Shown here in pieces: positions 11,000 through 51,640 of a stretch of DNA of 64,000 bases. This stretch comes from Psychrobacillus sp. BL-248-WT-3 (GTDB lineage Bacteria; Bacillota; Bacilli; Bacillales_A; Planococcaceae). The notes below the pieces were generated by a model. It worked only from the letters and a program-made list of their open reading frames with translations, was not told the origin of the DNA and searched no databases. A program made the translations under genes and the position numbers. The stretch spans positions 1 through 64,000 of the forward strand of contig NZ_JABAFC010000002.1 of NCBI RefSeq assembly GCF_012843435.1, read 5' to 3'. Each line of letters opens with the position of its first letter. Within the stretch, counting starts at the first letter, position 1.

Positions 11000-11539
11000 A
11001 TGGCAATTCAAATATATATATTGGGCAAATTAATGCAGGATAATAACTATCCATATAAGTTAAAAAAAGAGCTTTCAGAGCCAATTCCCTTAGATCAATT
11101 AGGGGGAGTGACAGAAAGTAAGCTATATTATCATTTTGAATCTTTGGTAAAACAAGGACTGATTGAACCGGTAGAAATTATTAAGGAAGAGCACCGACCC
11201 GATAAACAAGTATTTGCGATAACTAAGAAAGGTAAAGCTGCTTTACCACAAAAAATTTATCAATTATTTGAGAATACAGATACAATTAGCGGGATGGTCA
11301 TCGCTCTAGCAAATATAGAATATGTTGATCGCGAAAAAGTAATTGAGATACTTGAAAAGAAAATAACGCTTCTCAAGGAACGATGGGATAACATAAAAAA
11401 CTTAGAAAACCAAGTGCAGTTAACAGAGAAGAAAGAGCATTTAGTCAATTATCTTGGAGAATATTTTTCAGATAAGAACGATCATACCTCGCATTGGATC
11501 GAGGAGTTAATTAGACGTATTAAAAGCAATGAAATATAA
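11000..11539 (+). CDS. PadR-family transcriptional regulator
   Basis: 179 residues. N-terminal winged helix (IYILGKLMQDNNYPYKLKKEL ... SKLYYHFESLVKQGLIEP...KQVFAITKKGKAAL), followed by a C-terminal helical region with a coiled coil (EKVIEILEKKITLLKERWDNIKNLENQ). PadR proteins repress efflux or stress genes and respond to small molecules; the target is probably the gene upstream. AAAGGAG lies before ATG 11000. The gap to the upstream gene is 44 bases, so one transcript is likely. Confidence 0.85.
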   Translation: MAIQIYILGKLMQDNNYPYKLKKELSEPIPLDQLGGVTESKLYYHFESLVKQGLIEPVEIIKEEHRPDKQVFAITKKGKAALPQKIYQLFENTDTISGMVIALANIEYVDREKVIEILEKKITLLKERWDNIKNLENQVQLTEKKEHLVNYLGEYFSDKNDHTSHWIEELIRRIKSNEI

Positions 11540-11579
11540 GAGGGTTATTCAGCTAATTCGATAGCTGAATGACCCTTTT
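11540..11579 (+). terminator. Terminator after the padR-like gene
   Basis: AGGGTTATTCAGCT and AGCTGAATGACCCT pair around an AATTCGAT loop, followed by TTTTGTATTTTT. Confidence 0.85.
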
Positions 11580-11675
11580 GTATTTTTAGAGTAGAATTCC
11601 ATTTTATAGATTGGTTATAAAATTGAGTAAATATCGTGGGAAATTGTATAATGGGTATAATTGGAGGTGAAGTAT

Positions 11676-12146
11676 TTGAAACTGTTTATTCAAGTGGTCA
11701 TTGGTTTGATGTTGTTAATATTTTCTACAATTGCTTCTTGGTATGAGGGAAGTACATTGACAACGGCTATATGGGAGTGGAAGCATACAGCGGTTTTTTC
11801 AAAGTGGATCAATGGGTCTGTAAACCAAGCAAATGATATTTTAACAATAGATTATTTTATATATGCAGCTAAATTCTCACCTGCCTATCCTTTAACCATG
11901 CTATTAAGTGGAACGTATTTAATTATACTGATCGGCTACATATTATTTAGAGGTAAAACAAAGCTATTTTCTTATTTTCTAACTTCTGTCGGAATTGTAT
12001 TCTTGGTTCTATGTAATTTAGTATCAGGTTCCCCGACGATAGGTCTAACCATATTTTTTTACAGTTCTCTTTTAATAGGAATTTTAGCGATTGGTGTAGC
12101 AATTATCTTACTTGTTACCAACAAAAATAAGGGGATAACAACTTAA
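11676..12146 (+). CDS. DUF4306 membrane protein (YjdJ-like)
   Basis: About 156 residues, four membrane helices. The opening (FSTIASWYEGSTL...WEWKHTAVFSKWING) is the conserved DUF4306 region between helices 1 and 2. Function unknown. The frame is open from TTG 11661, but GGAGGTGA at 11663-11670 places the start at TTG 11676 (MKLFIQVVIG). Single gene between two terminators. Confidence 0.75.
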   Translation: MKLFIQVVIGLMLLIFSTIASWYEGSTLTTAIWEWKHTAVFSKWINGSVNQANDILTIDYFIYAAKFSPAYPLTMLLSGTYLIILIGYILFRGKTKLFSYFLTSVGIVFLVLCNLVSGSPTIGLTIFFYSSLLIGILAIGVAIILLVTNKNKGITT

Positions 12147-12189
12147 ATGTCCTGTTCCATAAATAGTTAAATATTATAAGAGCTAAACC

Positions 12190-12224
12190 AGAAGCCGATA
12201 CTTCACTAGTGTGGGCTTTTTTTC
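12190..12224 (+). terminator. Terminator after the DUF4306 gene
   Basis: AGAAGCC ... GGGCTTTTTTT with an inner CACTAGTG palindrome; an imperfect stem with a clear T run. Confidence 0.55.
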
Positions 12225-12291
12225 ATTCATAATTTAATATGCCTTTAGTGAATCCATCCCGTTTACAAAATAATAAAGAGAGTATATTATG

Positions 12292-12317
12292 TATATATGA
12301 ATATATAATCATATATA
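12292..12317 (+). promoter_or_regulatory. CzrA/SmtB-type operator before czcD
   Basis: TATATATGAATA (12292-12303) and ATCATATATA (12308-12317) form an imperfect dyad like the 12-2-12 operators bound by CzrA/SmtB-type repressors (ATATATGAA...TTCATAT pattern). It sits 38 bases before the czcD start, and a CzrA-like gene follows czcD. This is inferred by similarity to the known consensus. Confidence 0.6.
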
Positions 12318-12355
12318 AGTTTTAGTTTTACTTTAATGGAGGGCAGGGAGTTATT

Positions 12356-13303
12356 ATGTCGGATCATCATAATCACACACACAGTGCCAATAAAATAGTA
12401 TTGCTCGTTTCTTTTTTTATCATTTTTACCTATATGATTGTAGAGGCAATCGGCGGCTATTTGACCAACAGCTTGGCGCTTCTTTCAGATGCAGGACATA
12501 TGCTAAGCGATGCTGTATCTTTGGCCATTGCATTATTGGCGTTTAGCCTTGGAGAAAAAGCTGCAAATAGTAACAAAACATATGGATATAAGCGCTTTGA
12601 AATTTTAGCAGCTGTGCTCAATGGCCTAACGCTTATGGGGATTGCATTCTTTATCTTTTATGAAGCATTTATGCGATTCGCTAATCCACCAGAGGTTGCT
12701 ACAACTGGGATGTTAATCATTAGTTCTATTGGTTTAGCGGTTAATATTTTTGTAGCTTGGTTTATGATGCGAGGTAGTGATACAGAAGACAACCTAAATA
12801 TGCGAGGAGCTTACTTGCATGTTATTAGTGATATGCTAGGCTCAGTCGGAGCAATCATTGCTGCATTACTCATCCTGTTCTTTGGATGGGGATGGGCGGA
12901 TCCATTGGCTAGTGTGATTGTCGCTGCGCTTGTATTAAGAAGTGGATACTTTGTAACAAAGGCATCTCTCCATGTTCTAATGGAAGGTACCCCACAAAAT
13001 GTAGACATAAATAACATTGTACAAACAATCGAACAAAACCCTGAAATCCATAGTGTCCATGATTTGCACATCTGGTCTATAACCAGTGGCTTGAATGCAC
13101 TATCCTGCCATGTGGTTGTGAAAAAGGAAATGACAATTGGTGAGGGTGAAAAACTCCTGCAAAAAGTAGAGCACGATTTAGCTCATCAAAGTATACAGCA
13201 TGTGACTATTCAACTGGAAACAGAATCACATAAACATGATTCATCTATTTTATGTACAACAAAGGCAGAAGACACAGGAGCTCACCACCATCATCACCAC
13301 TAA
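12356..13303 (+). CDS. czcD: CzcD-type cation diffusion facilitator (zinc/cobalt/cadmium efflux)
   Basis: 315 residues, six membrane helices and a cytoplasmic C-terminal domain. The metal site motif on helix 2 reads LLSDAGHMLSD (D45, H48, D52), with its partner HVISDMLGS on helix 5. Both ends are His-rich (MSDHHNHTHS and HHHHHH), as is common in zinc CDF proteins. It exports divalent metal in exchange for protons. Preceded by a CzrA-like operator and followed, after a 417-base gap carrying a hairpin repeat, by the czrA-like regulator. Confidence 0.93.
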   Translation: MSDHHNHTHSANKIVLLVSFFIIFTYMIVEAIGGYLTNSLALLSDAGHMLSDAVSLAIALLAFSLGEKAANSNKTYGYKRFEILAAVLNGLTLMGIAFFIFYEAFMRFANPPEVATTGMLIISSIGLAVNIFVAWFMMRGSDTEDNLNMRGAYLHVISDMLGSVGAIIAALLILFFGWGWADPLASVIVAALVLRSGYFVTKASLHVLMEGTPQNVDINNIVQTIEQNPEIHSVHDLHIWSITSGLNALSCHVVVKKEMTIGEGEKLLQKVEHDLAHQSIQHVTIQLETESHKHDSSILCTTKAEDTGAHHHHHH

Positions 13304-46272: not shown

Positions 46273-46314
46273 ATAAACTATTAACTACTACTTACTAAAA
46301 AGGGGATATTGAGG

Positions 46315-47088
46315 ATGATAAAAACAGTTAAAGGGAAAATAATTACAGGAACAGTGGCTGTTACATTACTTGTTGGAGCGGGATCTGCATTTGGGGCATC
46401 TAATGCTGGTGAAATGCTACAAAACTGGTTTAATACTCAATTTGGTGCAGCTACCGAGGAGTTTGATGAAACCGTTGGTGGATATCAAGACGATAAAACA
46501 TTAGTAGCATCAACTCAGTACGGGGCTTTAGAGGCGAAAGCTACCAATAAGATTGGTGAATCTCAAGAAGACTCTACTGCAGGTGCTGCTTCTAAGATTG
46601 ATAAAGACTTGCAGGAGCATAAGGCAGCGTTAGAGGCGAAAAAAGTAGAGCTTACTAATTACACTAATGCAGAGTTCACTAAAATTTATGAGATAGAAAA
46701 AGAGAATATACGTCTTCTCTGGTTAGAGGCAAATCGAAAAGCAGAAAGAGATATGGAGGCACATACGATAGCCGAAGGATCTACTGCTTTAGATGCATTA
46801 AATGCTGAATTAGAAGCTGCAACAACAGCAGCGCTTTCTGAGCTAGAAGCAGCGATAGAAGCTTCCAAGTCAGGTCTTCAGGCTACCATTGACAATCATG
46901 TGGATACTAAAACGGATGATTTGAAAGGAAAAATAGATAAGGAATTAGCAGACTTTACGCTTTGGACACAAATGATGACTAACTTCATGATTCAGACCCA
47001 AACAGATGCAATAGAAGCAGCTGCCAAAGATTTAGAGACAGCAGCGTTAACTTCTATGCAGGACTTAGTAAATGGGATAAATGAATAG
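46315..47088 (+). CDS. Secreted coiled-coil protein, NWF cluster gene B
   Basis: About 257 residues from ATG 46315, 9 bases after AAAGGGG. Cleavable signal peptide (MIKTVKGKIITGTVAVTLLVGAGSAFGA, cleavage near residue 28), then GEMLQNWFNTQFG carrying the shared NWF motif. The rest is a long Ala/Glu/Lys-rich helix (EHKAALEAKKVELTNYTN, LEAATTAALSELEAAIEASK), expected to be a coiled coil. No wall-anchor motif. Function unknown; a fibre, adhesin stalk or wall-associated spacer would fit the composition. Confidence 0.78.
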   Translation: MIKTVKGKIITGTVAVTLLVGAGSAFGASNAGEMLQNWFNTQFGAATEEFDETVGGYQDDKTLVASTQYGALEAKATNKIGESQEDSTAGAASKIDKDLQEHKAALEAKKVELTNYTNAEFTKIYEIEKENIRLLWLEANRKAERDMEAHTIAEGSTALDALNAELEAATTAALSELEAAIEASKSGLQATIDNHVDTKTDDLKGKIDKELADFTLWTQMMTNFMIQTQTDAIEAAAKDLETAALTSMQDLVNGINE

Positions 47089-47145
47089 GAACTCGGTAAG
47101 GTTACCAGTTTAGGGATGATTACACCTTAAGATGGAGGATGTGAA

Positions 47146-48087
47146 ATGAAGAGATATTCTAAATATGTTCAAAAATATAAGGTGGTTCTCCTTGTCTTTC
47201 TTATCCTGTTTGCTATGGCGATAGGGGGGGGTATTAGAACTGCTTTAGCTGATCAAGACATTGCACTTATGATGAGTAATTGGTTTAACAAGAAGAAAGA
47301 AGCTTCCGTAGCAGATATAGAACAAGCGATTACAAAGGAAAAACAAATTCTTTTAGATGACCTTGAAGCTTCTTTATCTAGCGAAATGCAGAAAGCGGCA
47401 GACCAATTAGTGTCGTTTGCTAATCTTGAAAAGCAAAATAGAATAGTATCTCTAAACGAGTATGCTGAGTCCTTAAAGTCTCAGATGAAAATAGACAACT
47501 CTGAACAGGAGAAAGTTATCCGGAATAACCTAGATGCTATTATTGCACACGCAAAGGCTCAAATGAATGGACAAGCTAATGAACTAACATTACTGCCAAT
47601 TCCTCCTGTAACGGAGGAAATAGAGAAAGAAGCTCCTAACGTTCCATTAGAGAATGAAGAAGAGCAAGGAAAAGGGGAACCAGAAGAGCGTCCTAATAAT
47701 ACAGATCAGGAAGGAGAAAAGAAAACAACCCCTAAAGATGATAAGGAGAATACAGTCGATCCGGTAGTAGGAGCTGATCAACCAAAGGTAGTTGATATCT
47801 ATTCCATTACAGACTGGTTTAACCCACCTAATATACAAGGTGTTCTTGTGGAAGAGGTTGAAATCCCAAATGGCGTATTTTCAATTAATAATTCATTTTC
47901 CGATATATTAATGAATCCTCAAGCCGCAGATTCTATGAGAAGTATACTTCGGGGAATTGAAAAGCACCCACAATTCGCTGAAATCCAATATAAGTCAATA
48001 GATGAAATGTCTCGAATATGCCCTGCTTTGTTTAACGAAACCATTTTATATATGCTTAACAAATCGCTTGTTCAAATAAAAATATAA
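47146..48087 (+). CDS. Secreted coiled-coil protein with C-terminal helical domain, NWF cluster gene C
   Basis: 313 residues. Basic head and signal/anchor helix (YKVVLLVFLILFAMAIGGGI), cleavage perhaps after TALA; then DIALMMSNWFNKKKE with the NWF motif, a coiled coil (residues 55-140), a Pro/Glu/Lys/Asn-rich linker (PLENEEEQGKGEPEERPNN) and a C-terminal domain of about 95 residues that opens with a related ITDWFNPP motif and ends with short helices (SFSDILMNPQAADSMRSILRG). AGGATGTGAA lies before ATG. It is the most complete member and could be the anchoring or binding partner of A and B. Confidence 0.78.
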   Translation: MKRYSKYVQKYKVVLLVFLILFAMAIGGGIRTALADQDIALMMSNWFNKKKEASVADIEQAITKEKQILLDDLEASLSSEMQKAADQLVSFANLEKQNRIVSLNEYAESLKSQMKIDNSEQEKVIRNNLDAIIAHAKAQMNGQANELTLLPIPPVTEEIEKEAPNVPLENEEEQGKGEPEERPNNTDQEGEKKTTPKDDKENTVDPVVGADQPKVVDIYSITDWFNPPNIQGVLVEEVEIPNGVFSINNSFSDILMNPQAADSMRSILRGIEKHPQFAEIQYKSIDEMSRICPALFNETILYMLNKSLVQIKI

Positions 48088-48095
48088 TAAAAAAA

Positions 48096-48155
48096 TTACG
48101 AGTGTTAGGTTAATCAGCAATTAGAATTGTTGATTAACCTGGCACTCGTTTCTTT
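48096..48155 (+). terminator. Terminator of the NWF cluster
   Basis: ACGAGTGTTAGGTTAATCA and TGATTAACCTGGCACTCGT pair with one bulge and are followed by TTTCTTT. Confidence 0.85.
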
Positions 48156-48244
48156 ATAGCGTAAATTAATTTACCCTATAAAAATATAATATTGCTTTTT
48201 AAAGTAATTTAAATTACTATTAAAAGTAATTGAGGGGGGATAAT

Positions 48245-49282
48245 GTGGAAGAAATAAGATTAAATGTTGCTTTACTTCGAAGAAAGGTGCCAAACCTAAC
48301 GACTGCAGCTAAATCTATTGGAATACGTCCTGCTACAGTTTCTAACTTATGCACTGGGAAAATCGATTTAGGAAAAGCAGAGGTAAAGACTCTTGTTGGT
48401 TTAGCTTCCTTGGCAAATTGCACGGTAGATGAATTAATCATTAGGGGGGAGAAAAAAGACATGATTGAAACTCAAATTAAAGCATTGGACTTTTTTGCGC
48501 CATTAGTAAAAGGAGGCACAACGGGCTTGGTTGCTAGACCTGGAATGGGACAGCTAGTAATACTAGCCGAGCTCATGCATCGTTTTAAAGAAAGTGGTTT
48601 TACTTCCGTGTTTTTATTGCCAAAAGAAGAGCATAGTGAATTAGAGGGGACCACGGAGTTAGCTGATATTGTAACTACTTCTATAGAGGAAGCCTATCAA
48701 AAGCTCGCACACATATCTGGGGAAGCAGTTTTTATTACTGATAGAAGCTATATTATTTCGGGGGAACTATTAGATTTGCAGGAAAAAATTCTTTCGGACA
48801 ATATAGAGGGTATTACAACTATTTTAGTCGACTTATCAGGAGATGTAGTGGATGAAGAAATGCCATTTGGACCATTAGAAACGGTTTGGCAGTTAGATGC
48901 AGACCTTGCAACTCGTCATATGTATCCAGCTATTCATCCCATTTATTCGACGTCATCGATAATGGAGGGAACGGATGTGGACCAACGTCATTTTGGTTTA
49001 AGACAACGCGCCCAAAAGCTACTACGACGTTATAGAGAATTACGTTCTATTGTAATGGTACATGGGATTCAAAAGCTTCCGGAAGGGGAGCAAACAACCT
49101 ATGATCGTGGAGAGAGGTTAGAGGCATATTTGACGCAGCCATTCTATGTTGCGGAAAAATTCACTGGTCCAGGAGAAGTTGTTTCTATAGAACAAACGTT
49201 GAATGATGTGGAAGCAATTCTAGAAGGAAAACAAGATCAGGAAAGTGTAGAGAAGTTAAAGTTTATTGGGTGCTTGAGCTAA
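48245..49282 (+). CDS. XRE helix-turn-helix protein fused to a degenerate F1-ATPase beta-like domain
   Basis: 345 residues from GTG 48245, 5 bases after AGGGGGG. Residues 1-68 are an Xre-type HTH (TTAAKSIGIRPATVSNLCTGKI). Residues 75-345 follow the nucleotide and C-terminal domains of F1-ATPase subunit beta: ETQIKALDFFAPLVKGG aligns with ETGIKVIDLLAPY.KGG; GLVARPGMGQLV replaces GLFGGAGVGKTV; then MYPAIHPIYSTSSIM, LLRRYRELRSIVMVHGIQKL and [14 protein letters not shown]-like AYLTQPFYVAEKFTGPGEVVS. The P-loop Lys and Thr and the GERTREG catalytic loop are gone, so ATP hydrolysis is unlikely; the adenine-side tyrosine (Y227) is kept. The beta-barrel domain is replaced by the HTH. Probably a DNA-binding sensor; the function is unknown. 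Confidence 0.8.
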   Translation: MEEIRLNVALLRRKVPNLTTAAKSIGIRPATVSNLCTGKIDLGKAEVKTLVGLASLANCTVDELIIRGEKKDMIETQIKALDFFAPLVKGGTTGLVARPGMGQLVILAELMHRFKESGFTSVFLLPKEEHSELEGTTELADIVTTSIEEAYQKLAHISGEAVFITDRSYIISGELLDLQEKILSDNIEGITTILVDLSGDVVDEEMPFGPLETVWQLDADLATRHMYPAIHPIYSTSSIMEGTDVDQRHFGLRQRAQKLLRRYRELRSIVMVHGIQKLPEGEQTTYDRGERLEAYLTQPFYVAEKFTGPGEVVSIEQTLNDVEAILEGKQDQESVEKLKFIGCLS

Positions 49283-49298
49283 ATAAAAATAGGTGAGA

Positions 49299-49333
49299 GA
49301 TGTAAATGATATAGTCATTTGCATCTTTTTTTA
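49299..49333 (+). terminator. Terminator after the HTH/F1-beta fusion gene
   Basis: GATGTAAATGA and TCATTTGCATC with a TATAG loop, followed by TTTTTTTA. Confidence 0.85.
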
Positions 49334-49448
49334 TTTGGGTGGTTAATCGTCGGTCTAAACCAAGCGTTAGCTTATTTGTTTAAGAACAGGAATTCAGGGA
49401 AAAACTACAAATAAAAAAATATATTTGTTCAAGGGAAAGGAGGACGCC

Positions 49449-49934
49449 ATGACTACTTTAAAAAGTAATGCACCTACCAAAGAAAATCAAAAACGTTATT
49501 CCAAAAAGAATATGTGGACTGGAATACTGTTTGGATTAGGAGTCGTTGCCTTTATAGATGAAGTGGTTTTCCATCAAATCTTACATTGGCATCATTTCTA
49601 TGATAAATCCACAACAGATATTGGCTTAGTTTCCGATGGATTATTCCATGCATTTAGCTTCTTTGCTACTGTGGGCTCGGCTTTTTTAATGGCAGATCTT
49701 CATCGACGCCAGGCTTTTTGGCCAAAAAGATGGCTAGGAGGCATCTTTTTAGGAGCCGGAGTTTTTCAGCTATATGATGGTACGATCCAGCATAAGCTAA
49801 TGGGTTTACATCAAATTCGTTATAATGTCGATATTCTCCCGTATGACTTAGTTTGGAACATAACTGCAATTTTAATGATTATCGTTGGTTTAGTTCTATT
49901 AAAACAAACGAGTACTAAGAGTGGAGGTGATTAG
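49449..49934 (+). CDS. DUF2243 membrane protein
   Basis: 161 residues, four helices. GILFGLGVVAFIDEVVFHQILHWHHFYD carries the conserved Asp/Glu/His set of DUF2243, with further histidines in SDGLFHAFSF and QLYDGTIQHKLMGLHQIR, which suggests metal or heme binding in the membrane. AAAGGAGG 5 bases before ATG 49449. It lies two bases before the ctaG-like gene; the two families are often neighbours. Confidence 0.85.
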   Translation: MTTLKSNAPTKENQKRYSKKNMWTGILFGLGVVAFIDEVVFHQILHWHHFYDKSTTDIGLVSDGLFHAFSFFATVGSAFLMADLHRRQAFWPKRWLGGIFLGAGVFQLYDGTIQHKLMGLHQIRYNVDILPYDLVWNITAILMIIVGLVLLKQTSTKSGGD

Positions 49935-49936
49935 GA

Positions 49937-50755
49937 TTGCATCATCACCAACAAGAAAGTGGTTTAAATATCGATATTGCTCAAATACTACTAGGTGCTC
50001 CATTTATAATCATGCTTTTTTTATATTTACTAGCCGTATATATGTCTAATAAAAGTAAACGAAAGTGGCCAAAATATAGAACGCTATTATGGGGAGTAGG
50101 AATTGTTTTAGCAATTATATCTGTATCGGGTCCCCTCGCACAGCAAGCACATACAGACTTTGTAGCTCACATGGTTGGTCATTTGTTTTTAGGGATGCTA
50201 GCACCGTTGCTTTTAGCTTTAGCGGCACCAATGACACTATTTCTTAGGGCTTTGCCGGTCAAAACTTCGCGAAGTATTACTAGAATACTTCGAACTAGAT
50301 TTATTCACTTTTTTCAAAACCCAATCGTTGCATCTATATTAAATGTCGGTGGACTTTGGTTGTTATATACCACACCTTTATTTGAAATGATGCATGAGAA
50401 TAGTTTGATTTATATCTTCATTCATATACACATTTTTCTAGCCGGCTACCTTTTTACAATCTCCATTATATATATTGACCCAACACCTCATAGAAAGAGT
50501 TATATATATAGATCAGTGGTTTTTTTATTTGCTCTAGCGGGTCATGCCATCCTTTCCAAATATATTTATGCAAACCCTCCAATTGGTATTTCGAAAACAG
50601 AAGCAGAAATGGGAGGGATGATTATGTATTACGGTGGGGACGCTATTGAGATAGGATTAATTATTATTCTTTTTTACCAATGGTTCAAACAAACCGGTCC
50701 TAAAGCTGAGATTATTAATCCTACACCTATCAATAGAAAAGAGGAGCTTATATGA
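49937..50755 (+). CDS. ctaG: Cytochrome c oxidase assembly factor CtaG (caa3 type)
   Basis: 272 residues, seven helices. Needed for forming active caa3-type cytochrome oxidase in B. subtilis, probably for copper delivery. Conserved histidine-rich segments: SGPLAQQAHTDFVAHMVGHLFLGMLAPLLLAL, IHIHIFLAGYLFTISI and ALAGHAILSKYIY. TTG start behind GGAGGTGATTAGGA. No oxidase subunit genes are in the window. The stop overlaps the next small gene (ATGA). Confidence 0.9.
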   Translation: MHHHQQESGLNIDIAQILLGAPFIIMLFLYLLAVYMSNKSKRKWPKYRTLLWGVGIVLAIISVSGPLAQQAHTDFVAHMVGHLFLGMLAPLLLALAAPMTLFLRALPVKTSRSITRILRTRFIHFFQNPIVASILNVGGLWLLYTTPLFEMMHENSLIYIFIHIHIFLAGYLFTISIIYIDPTPHRKSYIYRSVVFLFALAGHAILSKYIYANPPIGISKTEAEMGGMIMYYGGDAIEIGLIIILFYQWFKQTGPKAEIINPTPINRKEELI

Positions 50756-51430: not shown

Positions 51431-51640
51431 ATGTCAAACAACAACAACAACCGTAATAACATCAACCGCAACAACAACAACAATAATAACAACAACGAAT
51501 TCGGTGAAGAGTTCAACTTTGAAAACCTAAACAACAACAATAACAACAACAATGACAGAAATAACCGTAACAACAACCGCAATAACAATAATAACAACAA
51601 TAACAATAACAACAACAACGATAATAACAATAACCTGTAG
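51431..51640 (+). CDS. Poly-asparagine protein (69 aa)
   Basis: About 65% Asn with Arg and Asp, broken once by EFGEEFNFENL. Real gene: GGGGGGT about 8 bases before ATG, and a strong terminator right after. Encoded by AAC/AAT mixtures, so it is not a simple base repeat but is open to slippage. Low-complexity Asn-rich proteins occur among Bacillus spore-coat and exosporium proteins; a spore role is a guess. Confidence 0.75.
   Translation: MSNNNNNRNNINRNNNNNNNNNEFGEEFNFENLNNNNNNNNDRNNRNNNRNNNNNNNNNNNNNDNNNNL

Follow-up and report, generated by a model that had tools for sequence, protein, structure and literature searches.

The gene at 48245-49282 on the forward strand of the window, the whole stretch of 64,000 nucleotides of Psychrobacillus sp. 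BL-248-WT-3 DNA analyzed here, encodes a helix-turn-helix (HTH) domain fused to a core of the F1-ATPase beta subunit (F1-beta) whose P-loop is dead. A conserved array of short half-sites precedes the gene, is linked to it across genomes, and stands before additional genes in other species. The protein is probably an autoregulated one-component transcriptional repressor, in which a catalytically dead F1-beta would serve as the effector-binding and/or oligomerization module.

The fusion protein and its remodelled P-loop

The gene and its parts, all on the forward strand, are as follows:

48245-49282, forward: HTH/F1-beta fusion gene of 345 codons for amino acids, GTG start, TAA stop (ORF translation, profile matches).
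48245-48448, forward: Cro/XRE-like HTH, residues 1-68 (HTH_26 match, helices of the AlphaFold2 model).
48452-48646, forward: start of the F1-beta nucleotide-binding domain, residues 70-134 (PF00006 at residues 78-134; phmmer alignments from residue 70).
48524-48559, forward: remodelled P-loop GLVARPGMGQLV, residues 94-105 (comparison of 82 sequences).
48755-49279, forward: second half of the F1-beta nucleotide domain and C-terminal helical domain, residues 171-345 (phmmer and hmmsearch against PDB F1-beta chains; PF22919 at residues 244-304).

Homology to F1-beta covers the nucleotide-binding and the C-terminal domains and is seen with Pfam, with phmmer and on comparison of the family profile with PDB chains. 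PF00006 (residues 78-134, 3.6e-8) and PF22919 (residues 244-304, 5.3e-7) match the window protein above their curated Pfam cut-offs; the best PDB chain, an F1-beta, is found by phmmer at 1.7e-33, and the family profile matches F1-beta among PDB chains at E 3.5e-39, so that the profile comparison proposed in the initial annotation gave a significant result. The NCBIfam model for AtpD itself (TIGR01039) matches at 8e-37 with 127 bits, short of its curated cut-off of 463, and the next-scoring NCBIfam models are those for the alternate F1F0 beta (TIGR03305) and for the mycoplasma proteins MSC_0618 and MMOB1670. An ordinary AtpD is encoded at G000:C2 of the window's genome; the fusion gene lies elsewhere, not at the atpD locus.

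Relatives come from a named scan seeded with two HTH peptides, which gave 80 loci among the 256 relatives reported (hereafter, the named loci); because of these seeds, some of the conservation seen in the HTH peptides is built in by the search. The family alignment has 58 rows, the window protein and 57 of the 80 named loci, and the Pfam ATP-synt_ab domain is present in all 58. A Cro/C1-type HTH is recognizable at the level of the family, with HTH_26 detected at E<=0.01 in 49 of the 58 members (best 3.9e-6); the match in the window protein alone (residues 5-66, E 0.0035, 18 bits) is below the Pfam cut-off of 22. An AlphaFold2 model based on the 58 rows, of moderate quality only (mean pLDDT 74.9, pTM 0.66), has a helical N-terminus (helices at residues 8-14, 18-24, 29-37, 47-56 and 61-64 of the HTH part), alternating strands and helices in the middle and long C-terminal helices; residues 201-242 have a pLDDT under 50 and are not modelled with confidence. 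The HTH and F1-beta parts share a single frame in 81 of 81 clustered loci (the 80 named loci and the window), which rules out two genes joined by error, and both parts are covered in 28 of the 31 matches from genomes of the taxonomic family, the other three (G049, G032 and G121) being truncated. With the two Pfam domains above cut-off and HTH_26 in 49 of 58 members, the description of the protein as an HTH on an F1-beta scaffold is confirmed, and the motif blocks quoted in support of it are present in the 345-residue translation. PADLOC models gave 0 families at E<=1, that is, no match to anti-phage defence, and PHROGs gave weak matches alone, the best of which (E 0.0013) is to a phage transcriptional-regulator family.

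Alignment to the AtpD of the same genome bears out the loss of the beta-barrel and of the GERTREG loop; both are absent from the window protein, together with much of the F1-beta catalytic segment. The reported loss of the P-loop Lys and Thr extends to every homologue compared: in 82 of 82 sequences (the 80 loci, the window and one plasmid relative) the Lys is replaced by Gln and the Thr position is Leu or Val, the window protein having GLVARPGMGQLV in place of the Walker A GxxGxGKT. The positions G94, A97, R98, M101, G102, Q103 and V105 are invariant in the same 82 sequences and, on this comparison, the altered P-loop is a conserved new motif rather than decay. The adenine pocket, which we take to be Y345, F418, A421 and F424 in the bovine numbering to which the family positions were aligned, is largely kept: in our alignment the equivalent of Y345 is Tyr or Phe in 82 of 82 sequences, that of F418 is Phe in 78, that of A421 is Ala in 79 and that of F424 is Phe or Tyr in 78.

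A predicted operator array and the genes that carry it

The words AGTAA and TTACT recur upstream of the fusion genes. They form what appears to be a new array, in which half-sites of the GTAA type, as many as seven, alternate at 11-bp intervals across the promoter of the gene itself. The features around the window gene are:

48100-48147, forward: terminator-like hairpin upstream of the fusion gene.
48160-48229, forward: putative operator array, scoring 30 of 35 with the seven-half-site model of the family pattern; half-sites start with CGTAA at 48160, TTACC at 48171, a degenerate AAATA at 48182, TTGCT at 48192, AGTAA at 48203, TTACT at 48214 and AGTAA at 48225.
48192-48220, forward: likely sigma-A promoter TTGCTT-N17-TACTAT within the array, read from the sequence and similar in many relatives.
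49295-49329, forward: terminator-like hairpin directly 3' of the fusion gene.

The steps of the window array are of 11 bp, with one of 10, and from such steps the half-sites would lie on roughly one face of the helix. A generic promoter scan of the window did not have TTGCTT-N17-TACTAT among its results. In the 80 named loci, TTACK-N6-MGTAA occurs 98 times in 9,522 promoter bases, as compared with 13 times in 1,507,174 other bases, and MGTAA-N6-TTACK occurs 66 times in promoters against 10 in the other bases; half-site pairs with gaps of 5 and 7 occur at most twice in the promoters. The full layout, in which F is MGTAA and R is TTACK, is F-6-R-6-F, a gap, and R-6-F-6-R-6-F; the central gap is 6 or 7 in 62 of 79 promoters, and the fourth half-site also serves as the TTG of the -35 element. 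When scored with the seven-half-site model, 74 of the 79 promoters (of 80; that of L105 was cut too short) exceed the maximum of 25 reached by 1,537 A+T-matched control windows from the same loci, and the window promoter, scored separately, would at 30 also beat all of the controls. Five promoters do not exceed the control maximum. For L088, L102 and L059 the array is found farther upstream, 5' of the leading gene of a likely operon whose last gene is the fusion; L086 and L089 have no convincing array.

The array follows the gene. Within the genus (19 genomes), 15 of 16 carriers have a match to the pattern, with at most one mismatch, at the promoter of the fusion gene itself, the miss being in G151 (G511 is counted as a carrier by L166). 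The 26 matches obtained comprise these 15, four at M3-family peptidase genes, one second match at an own promoter and six strays, three of which fall in the three non-carrier genomes taken together; the reversed control gave five matches, about the level of the strays. Across the class, a strict promoter pattern was present in 8 of the 19 genomes that have the gene versus 4 of the 379 that lack it, and in all eight it sits at the fusion gene or its operon, the reversed pattern being found in 4 of 398 genomes. The initial proposal of a one-gene DNA-binding regulator fits this predicted promoter footprint, as judged from the half-site counts, the 74 of 79 promoters and the 15 of 16 carriers.

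The only perfect triple in the window's genome is that at the fusion gene's own promoter. A wider regulon there was considered and rejected, since triples with up to two mismatches gave 45 rows and the reversed control gave 46, and simple palindromes were not enriched either (15 sites versus 21 in the control; of the 15, 13 lie within ORFs, one is at the own promoter and one in another intergenic region). Because there is no second perfect triple and palindromes are not enriched, no target other than the regulator's own gene is apparent in this species. The single other intergenic palindrome, TTACT-N6-AGTAA at 1501-1516 of L273 (G000:C17:3610-3625), lies between two divergent ORFs and may be a weak target or a chance occurrence.

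Other species have the array before additional genes. A triple array is found just 5' of an M3-family peptidase gene in four genomes of the genus (PF01432 at 1.7e-27 in the one array-linked peptidase scanned). In Paenisporosarcina sp. TG20 (L059/G106) the order is array, M3 gene (split into two ORFs) and fusion gene, and in G121 it is array, intact M3 gene and a fusion gene ended by the contig end. M3 matches of more than 50% identity were found, among 151 genomes of the taxonomic family, only in G008, G151, G121 and G106, all of which are carriers. The array-linked M3 loci L194-L196 have quartet scores of 17-18 of 20, and L197, the second of the two split-gene pieces, has 12; none of 25 ordinary M3 paralogues scored (L198-L223 less L206, which was skipped, of 30 loci returned) reaches 15 of 20, and these have no array. 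An acetamidase/formamidase-like gene (PF03069; four scanned) adjoins the fusion gene in L088, L102, L106, G458 and G232. It lies between array and fusion gene in L088 and L102, follows the fusion gene by about 30 bp in L106, and in G232 also comes after it, with the two matches 10 bp apart; in G458 the order is array, amidase, alpha/beta hydrolase and fusion gene. Relatives of this amidase at E<=1e-90 are present in 27 of 398 class genomes, of which only the two closest (71 and 73%) adjoin a fusion gene and array; the loci of the remaining 25 genomes have no quartet of 16 or more, and a five-letter peptide match in one locus, L288, proved to be an unrelated protein. The M3 and amidase links are few in number. 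Judged by family, the predicted products of both kinds of gene are hydrolases that act on peptide or amide bonds, so that a toxin or metabolite containing bonds of this type would be a sensible, if unproven, signal.

Neighbourhood, distribution and selection

Apart from the M3 and amidase genes no recurring partner was seen, and no neighbour is conserved: the fusion family itself is present in 81 of 81 loci, and the next most widespread ORF cluster in 21. In 51 of the 80 loci a terminator-like hairpin lies no more than 200 bp past the fusion gene, and the window has hairpins on both sides. Three genes that come next in several loci were considered as targets and rejected. A toxoflavin-type/beta-lactamase gene is next in six Planococcus loci, with a hairpin between in five of the six (L074 was not scored). 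A nucleotidyltransferase-like gene is next in four Sporosarcina loci, with a hairpin in all four, that of L094 touching the first possible start of the ORF. A DUF2243 gene is next in eight named loci of the Psychrobacillus group, with a hairpin in six of the eight and in the window.

Several features of these neighbourhoods are recorded in their own right. Within the window, 49425-50755 encodes the DUF2243 membrane protein followed by Caa3_CtaG; in Bacillus sinesaloumensis (L057) a CtaG-family gene adjoins the fusion gene in convergent orientation, and neighbours of the same cluster are found in eight other loci. A 69-residue ORF at 51431-51640 of the window consists nearly entirely of Asn with some Arg. 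Two adjoining proteins encoded at 46309-48087, with N-terminal hydrophobic segments and a common short NWFN motif, are possibly tandem relatives and have no Pfam match. In L051, positions 11073-12755 encode a Planococcus protein of 561 residues with glyoxalase, toxoflavin-degrading-type and beta-lactamase domains, just downstream of the fusion gene and with a hairpin between the two.

The fusion family is present in 10 of 12 sampled genomes of the same genus, in 31 of 151 genomes and 7 of 19 genera of the taxonomic family and, in a patchy manner, in 19 of 398 genomes and 16 of 145 genera of the class; in two of these 19 (G049 and G032) the match lacks the HTH part. All 80 named loci carry Bacillota labels, and their genera include Psychrobacillus, Planococcus, Sporosarcina, Paenisporosarcina, Neobacillus and Mesobacillus, as well as Sutcliffiella, Fredinandcohnia, Halobacillus and Paenibacillus. 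Although the family extends to many genera, the one annotated relative examined, a 52% relative encoded on a plasmid record of Paenibacillus cellulositrophicus with a half-site triple at its promoter, is labelled a "hypothetical protein". In six pairs dN/dS is about 0.06-0.15 (dS 0.02-1.01, dN 0.003-0.063) and by this measure the fusion gene is under purifying selection. A quick tree contains a fully supported clade of nine in which Oceanobacillus, Lysinibacillus, Ureibacillus, Robertmurraya, Paucisalibacillus, Bacillus sp. and Bhargavaea are mixed, and this suggests some transfer of the gene between lineages. In G406, a second, truncated copy of the fusion gene (L178) has one TAG within the match and an adjoining triple array; the same genome has a full-length copy elsewhere.

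Proposed role, alternatives and known systems

From these observations we infer direct binding of the array, repression rather than activation, oligomerization and the existence of a ligand. The N-terminal HTH would read the GTAA-type half-sites, and the F1-beta core, made up of part of the nucleotide domain and the C-terminal domain, would have been recruited for effector binding and/or oligomerization. Several protomers could sit side by side on one face of the DNA, one per half-site and about every 11 bp, an arrangement that the half-site array fits; they would span the spacer, the -10 element and the start region and bar RNA polymerase until freed by a signal. Oligomerization like that of F1, suggested in the initial annotation, might conceivably take the form of rings; the array fits an oligomer as such. 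The own gene, the only target found in the window's genome, would be controlled in this way, and in other species the same array may place an M3-family peptidase, or an operon with the acetamidase/formamidase-like gene, under the same control.

What the F1-beta part responds to can be read in several ways. Adenine-nucleotide sensing, raised in the initial annotation, would make of the protein an energy-state sensor in which an adenine nucleotide or related compound binds in the old pocket and the level of ATP, ADP or AMP is reported to the HTH. The retention of the adenine-pocket equivalents in 78-82 of 82 sequences speaks for such a role, which is nonetheless unlikely: all 82 have lost the P-loop Lys and Thr, the missing GERTREG loop and catalytic segment make tight triphosphate binding improbable, and the other array-bearing genes are peptidase and amidase operons, not energy genes. 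Nucleotide sensing thus finds no support, though the pocket positions are largely kept. Alternatively, as a mimic of F1-beta the protein might bind an F1 partner (e.g., free alpha), or else some protein or toxin directed at F1-beta; it would then be a protein-protein sensor or decoy that is itself the effector and represses its own gene only. This seems doubtful; the hairpins that flank the window gene, the sole perfect-triple target in its genome, would agree with it, and the patchy distribution and the mixed-family clade of the quick tree resemble those of an accessory, transferable gene, but a pure decoy has no need of the enzyme genes found under the same array in some species, and a PADLOC match is absent. 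In the boldest proposal, which is likewise unlikely, the dead beta copy would be a target-mimic sensor, the receptor for natural F1-ATPase inhibitors such as peptide or amide toxins. If so, binding of the inhibitor would free the polymeric repressor from the array and lead to more of the mimic, soaking up the inhibitor, and the M3 peptidase, the acetamidase/formamidase-like enzyme and the alpha/beta hydrolase could destroy it where they are under the array.

Two further readings deny the protein the role of a regulator of its own gene. Another regulator could in principle occupy the array, whose binding by the fusion protein is predicted from sequence, and leave the fusion protein with a different job; this is very improbable, because the array tracks the gene (15/16 carriers; 8/19 against 4/379 genomes) and recurs with it in loci without common neighbours, and because the protein has its own HTH. 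That the gene is a decaying, functionless copy of atpD fused by chance to an HTH would account for the loss of the motor-specific motifs and is hardly credible, given an intact frame in 81/81 loci, dN/dS of 0.06-0.15 in the six pairs and a conserved altered P-loop. The autoregulated repressor, with a dead F1-beta as its effector-binding and/or oligomerization module, is the reading we favour. The enzyme genes under the predicted operator give handles on its signal, and seven half-sites on about one helical face offer a clean system for asking if an F1-like fold polymerizes on DNA.

Among the matches listed from the open-licence PMC literature, none describes a fusion of an HTH with ATP-synthase beta, a regulator resembling AtpD or one that mimics a target, in keeping with the initial annotation, whose author knew of no described family with this fusion. 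Residues 70-134 and 171-345 are homologous to AtpD, including YPA..P..STS and QPFYVAEKFTG, and RRYRELR stands for the QRYKELQ of AtpD; the fusion differs from AtpD in lacking the beta-barrel, the P-loop Lys and Thr and the GERTREG loop, in having an added HTH and in a score far below the AtpD cut-off. The alternate F1F0 beta (TIGR03305), MSC_0618 and MMOB1670 are relatives of F1-beta outside the standard ATP synthase, and all match the fusion by profile, but with scores far below the curated cut-offs. In the excerpted text of three papers, F1-like proteins of mycoplasmas belong to ATPase complexes, and the term DNA-binding is applied to none of them there (PMC3369863, PMC8406192, PMC11864180). 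With Cro/XRE repressors (HTH_26, HTH_31, HTH_3) the fusion shares an N-terminal helical HTH and palindromic predicted sites over its own promoter; it differs in that its effector part is F1-beta and in having up to seven half-sites, whereas Cro/XRE repressors usually have one to three operators. Regulators with enzyme-derived sensor parts include MocR/GabR (aminotransferase), ROK (kinase) and BirA (ligase), and the penicillin-sensing domain of BlaR1 is a target-like sensor; we know of no enzyme-derived one-component regulator that uses the F1-ATPase fold. The fusion protein may work like these, by analogy, in that an HTH or signal output is joined to a repurposed enzyme fold, and it would then be a case in which a gene regulator has taken over a subunit of a rotary motor for sensing or assembly.
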